Below are positions 4,282 to 58,694 of a stretch of 64,000 nucleotides of DNA, piece after piece. The translations under genes and the position numbers were made by a program. The notes under the pieces were generated by a model. That model had not been told where the DNA came from and made no database searches. It saw only the letters and a program-made list of their open reading frames with translations. The DNA is from Gemmatimonadota bacterium (GTDB lineage Bacteria; Gemmatimonadota; Gemmatimonadetes; Gemmatimonadales; Gemmatimonadaceae), in contig JAJPIM010000016.1 of NCBI GenBank assembly GCA_021324775.1, positions 1 to 64,000 of the forward strand, given 5' to 3'. Every line of letters begins with the position of its first letter. The stretch's first letter is position 1.

Positions 4282-4510
4282 GCGGATCGAAGGCCGGGGG
4301 GCTTGGGGGCAAGTTGGCGGGCTAGTGGTCCGGTGAGCGGCAGGCGGGCGGGATCCAGACCGAGAGCGCGGATCGAAGAGCTTGGCCTTGGGTGCAGCCA
4401 AGGGTGGGCGCCAATGGTGCTGGCCGGGGAGCCGGTGAAGCTGGCAGGAATGTGCCGGCGACGCGGATCGAAGGTCCCAGCCTTTGGTGTATCTGAGGGT
4501 GGGGGCCGTT
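4282..4510. repeat. Three degenerate ~90-bp direct repeats
   Basis: GCGGATCGAAG occurs at 4282-4292, 4368-4378 and 4463-4473, that is with spacings of 86 and 95 bp. After copies two and three a second shared block follows (CCTTGGGTGCA...AGGGTGGGCGCC against CCTTTGGTGTA...AGGGTGGGGGCC). The third copy runs into the GGGGGCCGTT hairpin. The repeats are diverged and non-coding; function unknown. Confidence 0.55.
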
Positions 4511-4524
4511 CTCGAACGGCCCCC
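4501..4524. repeat. Perfect 10-bp-arm hairpin (family-1 repeat, module A)
   Basis: GGGGGCCGTT, loop CTCG, AACGGCCCCC: a perfect inverted repeat followed by CGCTGCC. The same arms recur at about 38570, 39694, 57041 and 58542, always outside or at the edge of genes, so it is treated as a dispersed repeat and not as a terminator of one gene. Confidence 0.7.
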
Positions 4525-4817
4525 GCTGCCTAGTGCCGCCGCATCCGGCCTTCCACATGGAGTTGTGACCGCCGGTCCTGGTGGTTAGACCCGGGCCGGT
4601 GGCGGTAGCACCCGCGTGGTCAGGCCGCTCGGGGACGTTTTCCCAGCTTGCGCCGACGCGGCACACCATCAGGGAAGATGCGATTACCGGCGCGGCTGTA
4701 GGCATCGTCGTTGGCAGCCGCTCGGTTGTCGCGCGTCAGAAAGACCCGCATGGCCATCGTAAGCAAGGCTTCATTGCGGACCTTCAATGCCACCAATTTG
4801 ACCCGAAAGATAAATAG

Positions 4818-24611: not shown

Positions 24612-25538
24612 ATGTTTGCGCCAGTTTTCCGATGCGTCGCGATCCTTGCCCTCGGGGCGATCACATCCCCGCTCCCCGCGCAGTCCGCCGGGCCAGCCCG
24701 TGACCGGCTTGTCGTGTCGGGAGCGTGGCTTGCCGGCCACCTGCACGACCGGGATCTCGTGCTGCTCCAGGTGGGGGACTCAGCCGATTTCGATACAGGG
24801 CACATCCCGGGCGCACGTCCGGTCACTTTGGCGCAGATATCGGCCGGGATGAGCGGCAAAATGGACATGGATAACATTCTGATGCTCGAGATGCTGCCGA
24901 TCGACACGCTTCGGCTGCGGCTCGCGGACCTGGGCATCTCCAACCGATCGCATGTGATCGTGTACTTCACGACAGACCGGATCAGCACCACGACACGCGT
25001 GCTCTACACCCTGGCGTACGCTGGCCTGGGGCAGTCGTCGGCGCTGCTTGATGGCGGGCTTCGCGAGTGGCAGCGCGAGGGGCGGCCGGTGGAATCCGGG
25101 CCCGCGAAAGCCGTTGCGCGGGGCAGTGTAACGGCCCGGGCGCAGCCCTCGCTCGTCGTCAGCGCCGACTGGGTGAATGCTCACAAGGGGCAGCATGGCA
25201 TTGCGCTGCTCGATGCGCGGCAGGTGGGTTTCTTTGACGGGAGCCAGCAGGACGATGGGCCGCGCCGGGGCCACATCCCGGGCGCGCAGAGCCTGCCGTT
25301 CGAGGACCTGTACGACAGCACCGGAGCCCTGCGGCCGGCGGCGGCGCTGGAGGCCCGTTTCCGCGCGGCGGGCGTGCAGCCCGGCGACACCGTCGTGGCG
25401 TATTGTCACATCGGGCAGCGGGCGACCGCGGTGCTGCTGGCGGCGGAGACGCTCGGGTATCCCGTGCGGCTCTATGACGGGTCGTTTCAGGAGTGGGGCC
25501 GGCGGGCGGATCTGCCGGTGGAGGGCGGCGCGAAGTGA
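24612..25538 (+). CDS. Exported tandem rhodanese sulfurtransferase
   Basis: 308 aa with a signal peptide (MFAPVFRCVAILALGAITSPLPAQS) and two rhodanese domains (about 35-160 and 180-300). The first is inactive, with Thr/Asp in the loop (YFTTDRISTTT); the second keeps Cys in AYCHIGQRAT. The arrangement matches periplasmic thiosulfate or 3-mercaptopyruvate sulfurtransferases. It follows the DJ-1/AraC gene by 41 nt and adds to the sulfur genes at the left end of the window and the alkylsulfatase at 59.8 kb. Substrate is inferred. Confidence 0.88.
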   Translation: MFAPVFRCVAILALGAITSPLPAQSAGPARDRLVVSGAWLAGHLHDRDLVLLQVGDSADFDTGHIPGARPVTLAQISAGMSGKMDMDNILMLEMLPIDTLRLRLADLGISNRSHVIVYFTTDRISTTTRVLYTLAYAGLGQSSALLDGGLREWQREGRPVESGPAKAVARGSVTARAQPSLVVSADWVNAHKGQHGIALLDARQVGFFDGSQQDDGPRRGHIPGAQSLPFEDLYDSTGALRPAAALEARFRAAGVQPGDTVVAYCHIGQRATAVLLAAETLGYPVRLYDGSFQEWGRRADLPVEGGAK

Positions 25539-25569
25539 GCCGGCCGGCGGCACGCGCAAGATCTGCTAC

Positions 25570-25645
25570 AAAAAGCAGAGAGTAGCCGTACAGTAGGTAG
25601 AAAGTAGAAAGTAGAGAGTAGACGAAAGGGCCTGCCAGGACCTCA
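25570..25645. repeat. GAAAGTA polypurine tract, convergent junction
   Basis: AAAAAGCAGAGAGTAGCCGT, then GTAGAAAGTAGAAAGTAGAG, then AGTAGACGAAAGGGCCTGCC. Its last part matches the tract at 20.41 kb for about 30 bp with few changes. It fills the gap between the rhodanese stop and the stop of the ADOP permease. Confidence 0.72.
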
Positions 25646-25650
25646 GTCTC

Positions 25651-28359
25651 TTAGTCTGCGACCATCGTGATGGCGGGATCGACCCTCGCCGCGCGGCGCG
25701 CGGGGAGCAGGCAGGCGACGGCGGCGATCAGGATGAGGATGAAGGCCACGGCGGCGAACGTCAGCGGGTCGGTGGCGGAGACGCCGAAGAGGAGTGCCGA
25801 CATGAATCGCGTCGCCGCGAATGCCACGGTGAGTCCCACCGCGATGCCCGCGATGGCGACCGTCAATCCTTCGCGCAGGATCTGCGCGTAGACCTGCGTG
25901 GTGTCCGCACCCAGGGCGATGCGGACGCCGATCTCGCGCGATCGCCGCCCCACGGAGAACGCCATCACTCCGTAGATCCCGACGGCTGCAAGGACGAGTG
26001 CCAGCGCAGCGAAGAGACCGAGCAGCATCGCACGGAACCGGTTGGCCGACACGGATGCATCCATGAGGTCCCGCACCGTCCGGACCTGTGCGACCGCCAG
26101 CTCGGGATCGAGGCGCTCGACCGCCGTCCGGAGCGCTGCGGCCATGTCATCCGGCGGGACGGCGCCGCGCATGACGACCGCGAAGCTCCGGTACTGGCCC
26201 TGCGAGAACTGCGCGAACGGGAAGTACATCGCGGATGTGGCGCCACGTGCGAGGCCTTCGTACGGCACATCTCCGACCACGCCCACGATGGTGTATTCGT
26301 TCGGCGGCCCCTTGCCGCCCACATTCAGGCGTTGGCCCAGAGGATCCGAATGCGGGAAGAACCGCCGCGCCAGCTCCGTGCTGATCATGACCGTTTGCGG
26401 CCCGTTGCCATCGTCGCGGGCGTCGAAAACCCGCCCGCTGCGGAGGGGGATGCCCATGGCCGCGAAGTACTCGCCATCGACGGCGATGACATCGGCCAGC
26501 GGCGCGAACTCGAAGTCGGGGACGGGGTGCCCCGTGACGAAAAAGTCCGACGCGTATCCGACGTCGGGAGGCAGGCCGACGCTGGCGCTGGCGATCGCGA
26601 CTCCCGGTACGCTGCGGACGGCGGCGAGCAGGCGGTCGTGGAACCCGAGGATCTGTGATGATTGGCCGTAGTGCGCTTTGGGGAGCGCGATCGAGGCGGT
26701 GACCACACCATCCGCGTGCAGGCCCGTGTCTACGGCCAGCAACTTGCCGAGGCTTCGCACGAGAAGGCCCGCCGTGACGAGCAGCACGAGCGAGAACGCG
26801 AACTCGGCGCCGGCGAGGATACTCCGCACGTGGCGGCGGCCGCTCCCATCCGTGCTGCCGCGGGCGGCGGCGCCGATCCCGGTCGCGGGCCGTGCCGGTA
26901 CGCCAAGAAGGGCCGGTGCGAGGCCGAAGAGCAGGACGGTTCCCATGGAGACGGCCGCGGCGACCAGCAGCACCTGCGCGTCCACGCCGACCTGGAGGTC
27001 GCGCAAGAGCGCGAGACTCGGTGGCGCGCTCGCGACGAGTACACGCACGCCCCACACCGCGAGGAGCACGCCGGCGGCACCGCCGAGGAATGCCAGCAGC
27101 AGACTCTCGGTCACGAGCTGCCGGATGAGGCGGGCGCGGCTCGCGCCAAGTGCTGTCCGCACCGCGAACTCATGCTCGCGGCTCATCGCGCGGGCGAGCA
27201 TCAGGTTCGTCACATTGAGGCAGGCGATCAGCAGCACCAGCACGACGGCGGCCATGAGGACGAGGAGCGCGGGCCGCAGCGATTTCGACAACTGCTCCGA
27301 CACCGGCTTCGTGACGAACGTCCAGCGTGCCGGACCGCCCGGGAAATCCGAGCGGACACGCTCCGCGGCCCGGTCGAGCGCGCCCTGGAGCTGCGCTGGT
27401 GTGACGTCCGGCCGCACGCGTGCGATGCCCTGCCAGCCCCAAGGTCCCTGGCGCGAAGGTGTGGGCAGCATGTCGTTGAGCCAGATATCGGCGACCTCGC
27501 TGCGGGGAAACCAGACATTGGGCGGCATCACCCCGGTGACGGTGACTGGCGAGCCCTGGATGGTGAGTTGTTTCCCGACAATGGCCGGATCGCCACCCAG
27601 CCTGTCCTGCCAGAACCCGTAGCTCAGGATCACCTGCGCCGGGGCGCCTTGCGCATCATCGCCGGGCCGAAACACGCTCCCGAGGAGCGGACGGATGCCG
27701 AGCGTCGTGAAGAAGCCGGCGCCGACGGCCGTGCCAAACACTCGCTCCGCGCGATTGCCGACGACGAGCGAGAACCCATCGCTCGGCGCCATGTACGTCG
27801 CGATCGAGGAGAACACGGGGTCGTCGCGGAGCTCGCGGAAGTCCGCCATCGACAACGAGCCCATACCGCCTTCCGCCTTGTCATTGGTTTGATAGATGCG
27901 GAGGAGGTGCGCCGGTTGCGGGAACGGCAGCGGGCGCAGCAGGACGGCATTGAGCACCGTGAACATCGCCGTGGTCGCGCCGATGCCGAGTGCCAGCGTG
28001 ATACCGGCGACGGCCGTGAAGCCCGGGGTGTTGCGGAGCGCGCGGATGCCGTACCGGACGTCGCGCCAGAGGTCCGCGAGCAGATGACCCGACACGTGTT
28101 CGCCAGCCAGCGGGCCTGCCAGCGGGCCCGTGCCGGTGGCGGGCCGTTCCGTGGCGATGAGAGCGTTCGCCAGAACATCGCCGGCCAGCTCGTCGCGCAC
28201 GGTGCGGAGCGCGTCGTCTTCGGAGTGGCCGCGCGAGCGCAGGTCGGTGTAGCGATCCTCGAGGTGTTGGGCGAGTTCCTCGGTGATATCCGATTCGCGG
28301 CGGGCGCTCAGACCGAGAGGGGCCAGGCGCGCGTGGACATCGGCGCGCCAATCAGGCAC
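25651..28359 (-). CDS. ADOP-family MacB/FtsX-like permease, PadR-linked
   Basis: About 902 aa. An N-terminal cytosolic domain (about 1-80: LSARRESDITEELAQHLEDRY) typical of PadR-linked ADOP permeases precedes two MacB periplasmic core and FtsX units. The first unit (FRDFRYGIRALRNTPGFTAV-like: DVRYGIRALRNTPGFTAVAG; PLPFPQP) and the FtsX halves (ARAMSREHEFAVRTALGASR; SVGRRSREIGVRIALGAD) are clear. No ATPase gene adjoins it. Start GTG 28359 overlaps the PadR stop by 8 nt (GTGCCTGA); an in-frame GTG at 28389 would add 10 residues. It may act as a mechanotransmission or efflux permease. It is co-transcribed with PadR from the operator at 28.7 kb. Confidence 0.87.
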   Translation of the reverse strand: MPDWRADVHARLAPLGLSARRESDITEELAQHLEDRYTDLRSRGHSEDDALRTVRDELAGDVLANALIATERPATGTGPLAGPLAGEHVSGHLLADLWRDVRYGIRALRNTPGFTAVAGITLALGIGATTAMFTVLNAVLLRPLPFPQPAHLLRIYQTNDKAEGGMGSLSMADFRELRDDPVFSSIATYMAPSDGFSLVVGNRAERVFGTAVGAGFFTTLGIRPLLGSVFRPGDDAQGAPAQVILSYGFWQDRLGGDPAIVGKQLTIQGSPVTVTGVMPPNVWFPRSEVADIWLNDMLPTPSRQGPWGWQGIARVRPDVTPAQLQGALDRAAERVRSDFPGGPARWTFVTKPVSEQLSKSLRPALLVLMAAVVLVLLIACLNVTNLMLARAMSREHEFAVRTALGASRARLIRQLVTESLLLAFLGGAAGVLLAVWGVRVLVASAPPSLALLRDLQVGVDAQVLLVAAAVSMGTVLLFGLAPALLGVPARPATGIGAAARGSTDGSGRRHVRSILAGAEFAFSLVLLVTAGLLVRSLGKLLAVDTGLHADGVVTASIALPKAHYGQSSQILGFHDRLLAAVRSVPGVAIASASVGLPPDVGYASDFFVTGHPVPDFEFAPLADVIAVDGEYFAAMGIPLRSGRVFDARDDGNGPQTVMISTELARRFFPHSDPLGQRLNVGGKGPPNEYTIVGVVGDVPYEGLARGATSAMYFPFAQFSQGQYRSFAVVMRGAVPPDDMAAALRTAVERLDPELAVAQVRTVRDLMDASVSANRFRAMLLGLFAALALVLAAVGIYGVMAFSVGRRSREIGVRIALGADTTQVYAQILREGLTVAIAGIAVGLTVAFAATRFMSALLFGVSATDPLTFAAVAFILILIAAVACLLPARRAARVDPAITMVAD

Positions 28360-28770: not shown

Positions 28771-28808
28771 GGGGCCGGTCACGACCGGCCCCTGCCAGGG
28801 ACGAATTG
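28771..28808. repeat. Family-1 intergenic repeat, module B
   Basis: GGGGCCGGTC, AC, GACCGGCCCC (arms perfect, 28771-28792), followed by TGCCAGGGACGAATTG. It matches the 20-bp palindrome plus CTACCAGGGACGAATTCG tail found near 38.6, 41.3, 57.1 and 58.6 kb. It lies between the PadR operator and the second permease gene. Confidence 0.75.
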
Positions 28809-38080: not shown

Positions 38081-38608
38081 ATGGACATCTACGGCCTGCT
38101 CGACGCCAACGGGATCGTGTACAAGCGGTACGATCACGTCGCGGTCTTCACGTGCGATGAGGCGGACAGTGCAATGCCGCGCACGGGTGCGGCGCACACG
38201 AAGAACCTTTTTCTCCGCGACAAGAAGGGGCAGCGCCACTGGCTCCTCGTGACGGTGTGCGAGAAAGCCGTGGATCTCCGGCGAGTGGCCGAACGGATCG
38301 GTGCGGACCGGCTGAGCCTGGGGTCGGGCGAGCGGCTGGAGAAGTATCTGGGCGTGACGCCGGGGTCAGTTACGCTGCTGGCACTCGTGAACGACCCGCA
38401 GCATCATGTCACGGTGCTGATCGACGAGGACGTATGGCGGGCGGAGACCGTGCAGGCGCATCCGCTGATCAACACTGCGACGCTGGTGATTTCGCAGGCG
38501 GACCTGCGGCGTTTCCTCAGCGTGACTGGGCACGAGCCGAGGGTGATCCCGGTGGAGAACCGGGCGGCAGGGGCCGTGCTTGAACGGCCCCCGTTGCCCT
38601 CCGCATGA
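38081..38608 (+). CDS. YbaK/ProX-like prolyl-tRNA editing protein
   Basis: 175 aa of the YbaK/Pro-tRNA deacylase family: YKRYDHVAVFTCDEA, TGAAHTKNLFLRDKKGQRH with the key Lys, and LSLGSGERLEKYLGVTPGSVT. Such free-standing proteins hydrolyse Ala- or Cys-tRNA(Pro). The last 12 or so residues (AGAVLERPPLPSA) do not belong to the family; they are encoded by a family-1 intergenic repeat (38570-38608), and the same words occur in a translated frame at 39.7 kb. The ATG is 16 nt behind the esterase stop. Confidence 0.88.
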   Translation: MDIYGLLDANGIVYKRYDHVAVFTCDEADSAMPRTGAAHTKNLFLRDKKGQRHWLLVTVCEKAVDLRRVAERIGADRLSLGSGERLEKYLGVTPGSVTLLALVNDPQHHVTVLIDEDVWRAETVQAHPLINTATLVISQADLRRFLSVTGHEPRVIPVENRAAGAVLERPPLPSA

Positions 38609-38648
38609 AGGTCCGGTGGGCGACCGGCCCCTACCAGGGACGAATTCG
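38570..38648. repeat. Family-1 repeat, modules A+B, overlapping a gene end
   Basis: GGGGCCGT, loop GCTTGA, ACGGCCCC (38570-38591), then CCGTTGCCC, then CCGGTGGGCGACCGG and CCCCTACCAGGGACGAATTC (ends about 38648). The first part encodes the last 13 codons of the Pro-tRNA editing protein and supplies its stop codon. Confidence 0.75.
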
Positions 38649-38791
38649 TTTCGCGCGCGAGTGGGGGTGAACGGTTCTAGCGGATGGGCGATGGCCGCGG
38701 CATCCTGTAGGGGCAAGACCGTCACGGGGCAAATCTGCACGATCACGGCAGTCTCATCTCATCACGCGATACCCTTTGCCAGAGGGCCACG

Positions 38792-39693: not shown

Positions 39694-39799
39694 TTGGGGG
39701 TCGTTGCCCGAACAGGGCGATCTTCGGTTCTCGAACGGCCCCCGCTGCCCTCCTTCGCAGCATGTGGCCGACGACCAGCCCATATCAGGGACGAATTCG
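39694..39799. repeat. Family-1 repeat, modules A + degenerate B
   Basis: GGGGGTCGTTGCCCGAACAG, then CGGTTCTCGAACGGCCCCCG with outer arms GGGGG and CCCCC, then GGCCGACGACCAGCCC and ATCAGGGACGAATTCGTG. The A module is longer than at 4501 because an inner hairpin (GCCCGaacaGGGC) is inserted between the arms, as at 57041 and 58542. Confidence 0.7.
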
Positions 39800-39987
39800 T
39801 GTCGCCGACCGACCCGAAACGCGCGGGCGCCCACCGAGCTGGCGGTAGCGAGTCGTCGTTCTTGCCGCGAGGGCGACCGCCGGGATAATATCACCGCCCC
39901 GCGACCGGGAGCTGGCTGTCTGGCGCGGCGGAGGACTGGGATTCGCCGCGGACCGGTGGATCCGCCGCCCATTCAGGAGCCAATCGC

Positions 39988-41265: not shown

Positions 41266-41306
41266 GGTAGGGCCCGGTCGCGACCGGCCCCTACCAGGGA
41301 CGGATC
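41266..41306. repeat. Family-1 repeat, module B
   Basis: GGTAGGGCCCGGTCG against CGACCGGCCCCTACC: 15-bp arms with one mismatch and no loop (41266-41295), followed by AGGGACGGAT. It lies between the ends of amt and the convergent SPFH gene and may also serve as a terminator. Confidence 0.75.
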
Positions 41307-41328
41307 TGTCTCCGCAGGCGGCCGGTTG

Positions 41329-57040: not shown

Positions 57041-57196
57041 GGGGGCCGTTGCCCGGCAGGGCGAGCTACCGTTCTTGAACGGCCCCGCTGCGCAGACCTC
57101 AGCATCTCGGTGGCTACTACCAGGGCCGGTCGCGACCGGCCCCTACCAAGGATGAATTCGGCCGGCGACGACCGGCCGCTACCAGGGATGGATTCG
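57041..57196. repeat. Family-1 repeat, modules A+B+B
   Basis: Module A: GGGGGCCGTT (57041-57050) and AACGGCCCC (57078-57086) around an inner GCCCGGCAGGGC. Then GGTGGCTACTACCA and the perfect palindrome GGGCCGGTCGCGACCGGCCC (57123-57142) with CTACCAAGGATGAATTCG, and at once a second, diverged B module (GGCCGGCGACGACCGGCC, GCTACCAGGGATGGATTCG). The first 105 bp match the copy at 58542 closely. Confidence 0.85.
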
Positions 57197-57209
57197 TTTC
57201 TGGCAGGAA

Positions 57210-58541: not shown

Positions 58542-58646
58542 GGGGCCGTTGCCCGACAGGGCGACCTACGGTTTTCCGAACGCCCCGCTGCTTAGGGGCT
58601 GCGCCATTCTTGGTGGCTACTACCAGGGCCGGTCGCGACCGGCCCC
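58542..58646. repeat. Family-1 repeat, modules A+B
   Basis: GGGGCCGTT (58542-58550), inner GCCCGACAGGGC, CGTTTTC-like middle and GAACGCCCC, then GGTGGCTACTACCA and the perfect palindrome GGGCCGGTCGCGACCGGCCC (58626-58645) with CCTACT. A close match to 57041-57143 in the same orientation. Confidence 0.85.
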
Positions 58647-58649
58647 TAC

Positions 58650-58694
58650 TAGCCAGACTAGCCAGACTAGCTAGATTGGCTAGATCAGCCAGAT
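58650..58694. repeat. Five imperfect 9-bp tandem repeats
   Basis: TAGCCAGAC, TAGCCAGAC, TAGCTAGAT, TGGCTAGAT, CAGCCAGAT: 45 bp in five 9-bp steps, directly behind the family-1 repeat and before the toxin-antitoxin operator. Confidence 0.8.

Follow-up and report, generated by a model that had tools for sequence, protein, structure and literature searches.

REPs have been reported to provide stop codons for flanking open reading frames (ORFs), and to be located inside coding regions or at their ends (PMC3733652, 2013). RAYT genes are flanked by inverted repeat copies, an arrangement described in PMC2817692, and each transposase goes with its own repeat family, as described in PMC6006769. For the CGTC class of repeats, PMC3733652 reports no dedicated transposase flanked by repeats. 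The transposases of the IS200/IS605 family use the single-stranded lagging-strand template, and their elements are oriented by replication (PMC5371812). Gemmatimonadota are not mentioned in PMC3733652, and a keyword search of the literature returned no earlier description of REPs or RAYTs for this phylum.

Here, we describe a repeat at the 3' end of a tRNA-editing domain gene in a 64,000-nt stretch of DNA (the window) from a soil Gemmatimonadota bacterium whose genome comprises 4.19 Mb in 46 contigs. We consider it very probable that a non-autonomous element of the REP/BIME type, multiplied by a resident Y1/HUH transposase, lies at the end of a ProXp-ala-like gene and supplies its C-terminal tail and stop codon.

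Results

The product of the ORF under study (Table 1) carries the tRNA_edit domain PF04073 (E=2.7e-25) and is similar to ProXp-ala over its full length. A profile of five homologues, searched against solved structures, matched 5vxb (ProXp-ala; E=3.9e-39) and 1vki (E=1.4e-39). The preliminary description had called the protein YbaK-like; its placement in the tRNA-editing family stands through PF04073, but the YbaK assignment does not, as the YbaK equivalog model TIGR00011 scored only 19.8 bits against a cut-off of 153.25. Because the profile matches 5vxb and 1vki while the YbaK equivalog stays far under its cut-off, "ProXp-ala-like" is the better name; the product is closest to ProXp-ala, and the substrate assignment is a prediction from sequence. 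The C terminus reads ...VENRAAGAVLERPPLPSA, followed by TGA.

TABLE 1 The gene, its repeat-derived end, and further repeat copies (window positions except in the last row)
Feature	Position	Strand	Basis
ProXp-ala-like tRNA-editing domain gene, 175 aa	38081..38608	+	PF04073, solved-structure profile matches
Repeat-encoded C-terminal tail AGAVLERPPLPSA, residues 163-175	38567..38605	+	Past homologue ends; pLDDT <50 for 164-174
TGA stop codon, in module A-module B spacer	38606..38608	+	Sequence
Module A hairpin at gene end	38562..38599	+	RNA fold, family stem covariation
Stems of gene-end module A: outer GGGCGGC/GTTGCCC; inner GGGGCCGT/ACGGCCCC; loop GCTTGA	38562..38599	+	
Module B after the stop: imperfect hairpin with CTAC foot at 38631-38634 (GTAG when read on the other strand) and tail CAGGGACGAATTCGT	38610..38652	+	
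Second A+B composite, long-loop A, intergenic, directly after a dienelactone-hydrolase-family gene	39696..39800	+	
Module A copy, short-loop form	4495..4535	+	
Module B copy	28774..28801	+	
Module B copy	41273..41309	+	
Two tandem module B copies	57125..57197	+	
Module B copy	58628..58655	+	
Reductase with 87-nt in-frame repeat insertion	L082:9275-10855 = G000:C18 about 25275-26855	-	

The last 13 codons (AGAVLERPPLPSA) had been assigned to module A of a repeat. This is confirmed by the copies found across the genome and by the recurrence of the 23-mer TTGAACGGCCCCCGTTGCCCTCC (38580-38602) at 39731-39753 with 2 mismatches, where shuffled sequences lead one to expect 0 matches. The 39.7-kb copy lies in a noncoding stretch with no credible gene; in the corresponding frame it reads VLERPPLPSFA, which bears out the earlier claim that VLERPPLPS is readable there. 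The extent of the repeat, previously given as 38570-38608, has to be redrawn: it does contain module A, but the boundaries were misplaced, with the hairpin running from about 38562 (its outer stem begins in codon 161) and module B following the stop. Likewise, the repeat origin of the 13 codons stands, and their exact number is refined to 13 to 15. Because the copy continues past the TGA into module B, whose core at 38622 is identical to the B consensus (0 mismatches), the stop codon sits in the spacer of an A-B composite.

We then looked at where the protein would be expected to end. Five Gemmatimonadaceae sequences, this ORF included, align to about residue 162. The nearest relatives terminate in ...RERAA, ...PARGGA, and ...SVGGG, each followed by a stop, and the congener in ...HRPRLDPVISAT and a stop, a 9-residue tail without likeness to the repeat. 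Among 80 homologues from public species genomes, the tail beyond the conserved TGH is 7 to 35 residues long with a median of 11.5, compared with 24 here, which places the expected end at residue ~162. A natural end about 13 residues earlier is what the preliminary description had proposed looking for, and no repeat-free homologue among the 80 carries the same C-terminal residues; the word VLERPPLPS occurs in none of them. In an AlphaFold2 model (32 sequences), residues 151-160 have a mean pLDDT of 95 and residues 164-174 values under 50, so that the tail (residues 163-175) is predicted to be disordered. The extension therefore starts where the fold and the family stop, which is where the repeat starts. 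Together, the homologue ends and the predicted disorder of the tail support the earlier reading that a repeat at or before the end of the gene became coding sequence. A frameshift artefact at the gene end was ruled out, as homology continues in frame 0 to within 1-3 codons of the repeat. An empty site is not readable at this gene, the sole congener copy having a different neighborhood.

Tails equally long, of other sequence, are present in 4 of the 80 homologues, and our argument thus rests on the identity of the tail and not on its length. These long tails are what might be cited for a native C terminus that resembles the repeat by coincidence, or by convergence on GC-rich proline codons. We regard such an origin as extremely improbable, given that the 23-mer has no expected chance match, that module B follows directly, that the hairpin is intact, and that the residues are shared with no homologue.

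The gene-end module A is predicted by RNA folding to be very stable (-32.6 kcal/mol, z -3.9). Since it covers the last codons, and since REPs have been proposed as elements of posttranscriptional control (PMC3733652), the takeover might have been selected because the hairpin protects the mRNA 3' end or terminates transcription. An effect of the predicted hairpin on the mRNA end is possible, but selection for it appears unlikely to us. The gene-end copy has one stem mismatch (GTT to GTG), which is synonymous, and all 3 substitutions that separate the coding part from the consensus are synonymous, with a chance probability of ~4%. This pattern is a weak hint that coding, more than the stem, has been under constraint, and it is too little for a claim of selection on the tail.

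Genome-wide, module A has 92 copies at ≤3 mismatches (65 in another search), with 1 match for reversed-pattern controls, and module B has 98 copies at ≤3 mismatches of a longer pattern; these numbers fall in the tens-to-hundreds range of REP/BIME repeats. The module A stem covaries, with changes on both sides, in copies picked by the tail alone: pair 8 is G-C in 11 copies and C-G in 13, and pair 3 is T-A in 22 and G-C in 4. This covariation and the gene-end fold mark module A as a short hairpin-forming palindrome; many copies have a longer loop that itself contains a second hairpin. As expected of mainly extragenic repeats, a simple gene caller places 119 of the 123 distinct copies in the sampled DNA between genes. 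Among 59 module B cores that were located without using the foot, 45 carry a GT[AG]G-type foot, in the form of CTAC, which is GTAG on the other strand. Module A, in contrast, has no conserved GT[AG]G foot, GTGG being found in a minority of 62 copies. We therefore dropped the idea of a canonical GTGG-tagged REP after the foot count and term module A REP-like; some TnpA-REP classes (2.6 and 3) are reported to be without a foot too (PMC6006769). Only 15 of 71 A copies have a module B, with its foot on the other strand, no more than 190 nt away; the others are single or in tandem, and thus the two modules also exist apart. In sister genomes, the family is absent or rare.

Some copies form longer arrays. 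Module A occurs in tandem with periods of 62-63 nt at G000:C29:108716-109115 and G000:C8:42313-42582 of the source genome (G000), and one module B copy in the window continues into a short tandem repeat, TAGCCAGACTAGCCAGAC (58628-58690).

The sole intact PF01797 gene of the source genome (G000:C5:353786-354304 = L037:8786-9307) scores 34 bits against a cut-off of 23 and is flanked by inverted copies of the repeat, as RAYT genes are, with the A-type hairpin GGCGGCCGTTCTCGAACGGCCGCCGCTGC upstream on the + strand and an A copy downstream on the - strand. Its product has the motifs PDHVH and EYIANNPQRW and the single catalytic Tyr of Y1 HUH transposases. With phmmer, the transposase alone matched no solved structure, but a profile search matched ISDra2 and E. 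coli TnpA-REP, and the modeled structure superposes on TnpA-REP 4er8 with an rmsd of 2.4 over 131 columns. The best NCBIfam model was REP_Tyr_transpos, with 60.4 bits; because this is under the curated cut-off of 80, we use the label "RAYT-like." Residues 11-70 recur at 73% identity in a partial second copy (G000:C5:350077-350256), a relic that lies 3.5 kb from the intact gene and adjoins further A copies. A sister genome (G001) carries a RAYT-like gene of its own, with 44% identity (G001:C75; L217:1661-3177), flanked by a different GTAG hairpin, GTAGGGGCGGCATTCATGCCGCCC, of which there are 228 copies. Taken together, with its covarying hairpin, mostly intergenic location, GTAG foot on module B, and flanked transposase gene, what the preliminary description called an intergenic repeat can be named as an element of the REP/BIME type, accompanied in the genome by a RAYT-like transposase. 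We infer that this transposase moves the A and B copies.

On contig C18, a module A copy lies inside the 526-aa ORF of a Rieske/pyridine-nucleotide reductase on the opposite strand. The insert amounts to about 29 residues, PPLRAGAGRRGQPAPFENGAISAQHQQP; reductase orthologues align to residues 1-197 and then from 226 on, with nothing in between. DNA alignment with five relatives, all of which have the empty site, shows that the 87-nt in-frame insertion is the repeat. The element thus behaves as a discrete unit on insertion, and a coding sequence can tolerate it; since the same repeat demonstrably enters coding sequence here, the takeover at the editing gene gains support. Apparent overlaps of repeats with the N termini of an ATP synthase a-subunit ORF and a gamma-glutamyltranspeptidase ORF were attributed to start-codon miscalls.

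The reductase also bears on how the gene-end copy arrived. It is possible, if on balance doubtful, that the element landed just 3' of the editing gene, whose original stop was subsequently lost through a mutation or a small deletion, giving stop-loss readthrough. Landing after genes is common, as most copies are intergenic and the 39.7-kb copy sits directly behind a gene; however, no residual 3' sequence separates the natural end (~162) from the repeat (from 161-163), and direct insertion into a gene is demonstrated for the same family. The data fit both routes. We favor landing within the last codons, because of the C18 reductase and because no leftover 3' sequence precedes the repeat.

Repeat orientation was uniform within every contig (119 copies in 77 clusters on 26 contigs, none mixed), which has a probability of ~10^-15 if clusters are oriented at random. 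The larger module B search added one exception, at C37:206577, which is on the + strand while all other copies on C37 are on the - strand. At about 150-180 kb the GC skew of this contig, negative up to there, becomes positive, and the lone + copy lies beyond the change; as the best DnaA match is on the same contig (at 228 kb), the skew change is plausibly near the origin. When GC skew was computed on masked sequence, its sign agreed with repeat orientation in 21 of 23 contigs (p = 7e-5) and, copy by copy, in 123 cases versus 11 against. The discordant contigs were C43, all of whose copies are + despite a weakly negative skew along most of its length, and C34, which has a single copy. In the congener (G002), one contig (C11) runs against the skew.

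Other sources of this polarity were considered. Gene direction was ruled out, since the window has 25 + and 25 - genes by the simple caller while its repeats are all +. The repeats themselves do not cause the skew, since the 21/23 agreement holds with repeats masked; they are also C-rich on the G-rich strand. Integron attC sites, suggested by copies that follow genes on one strand per contig, were ruled out as well, given that genes of both strands intervene between copies, that the orientation of the copies goes with GC skew rather than with gene direction, and that a RAYT-like gene is present. Nor are REPs generally polar: three stretches of E. coli had 14 + and 13 - REPs, mixed (a fourth had none), and the G001 REP family was mixed in 9 of 25 contigs (best 100 places). 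The polarity is thus a property of this A/B family. In a search of open-licence papers, none was found that describes REPs with strict replication polarity.

By established convention, the skew-positive strand has the same sequence as the lagging-strand template. There, the A hairpin of the top strand and its tail would therefore be single-stranded, and the lagging-strand template may be the substrate of the RAYT-like enzyme. We see roughly an even chance that the family has been laid down almost exclusively one way with respect to the fork because its enzyme copies or pastes the repeat on this single-stranded template, some insertions then becoming protein. The polarity might instead reflect selection for a one-way chromosome-organizing signal read by a host protein, comparable to KOPS, and not the mode of transposition. 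Its near perfection across tens to hundreds of kilobases could be understood in this way, as could the fact that A and B are both polar though they co-occur in just 15 of 71 A copies. Such a signal is nonetheless improbable in our estimation: unlike a conserved chromosome signal, the copies differ in sequence and loop, some of them stand in tandem arrays and one within a gene, and sister genomes have few or none of them.

Discussion

In the course of events that we propose, hairpin modules A and B would have been multiplied by the resident REP-type tyrosine (Y1/HUH) transposase, and a composite A-B copy would have come to rest at the extreme 3' end of the ProXp-ala-like gene, where it replaced or displaced the original stop codon. 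Translation would since have run on through the repeat sequence, giving a disordered tail of 13-15 residues with the TGA of the A-B spacer as its stop, and this tail would be tolerated because the enzyme fold finishes before the repeat. The same element also entered the reductase gene in frame (87 nt). We infer that the tail is translated and neutral.

The ProXp-ala tail adds a further clean case to the known takeover of gene ends by REPs, backed by the test of the natural end, and the in-gene insertion of the reductase adds a readable empty site. Less expected is a REP population whose polarity with respect to replication is almost perfect and for which there is one candidate transposase. This bears on how REPs spread in vivo, as strict polarity makes single-stranded lagging-strand transposition testable, and the polar family yields predictions for polarity, for the strand that is cleaved, and for empty-site boundaries.

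Among described systems, the GTAG-tagged REPs (PMC3733652) are likewise dispersed short palindromes, mostly intergenic, that are found at ORF ends and inside ORFs. The stop codon supplied there is the TAG of the GTAG foot, whereas here it is a TGA in the A-B spacer and the foot is not used. The Rickettsia palindromic elements, as they are cited in PMC3733652, offer a parallel for a palindromic repeat read in frame within a protein; they differ in having unrelated sequence and, according to the same citation, a CGTC foot. Closer in taxonomy are the repeats of 90 and 150 bp that PMC11237797 reports from chromosomes of Gemmatimonadota, which are also many, short, and dispersed. We liken them to modules A and B by description, and the account of them in that source does not identify them as REPs, link them to a transposase, or analyze their orientation.

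With IS200/IS605 elements (IS608 and ISDra2), the A/B family shares the fold of its transposase and an orientation that follows replication, which in those elements goes with use of the lagging-strand template (PMC5371812). Unlike in IS200/IS605, the oriented units here are short noncoding hairpin repeats, and the transposase gene has not been multiplied. REPtrons (RAYT/TnpA-REP with flanking REPs and BIMEs; PMC2817692, PMC6006769, and PMC8266576) match in having a single-copy Y1 HUH transposase gene with inverted repeat flanks, and the A and B hairpins form composites as theirs do. The present family departs from REPtrons in that module A goes without a conserved GT[AG]G foot, in that A and B are mostly apart, and in that nearly all copies have one orientation with respect to replication.
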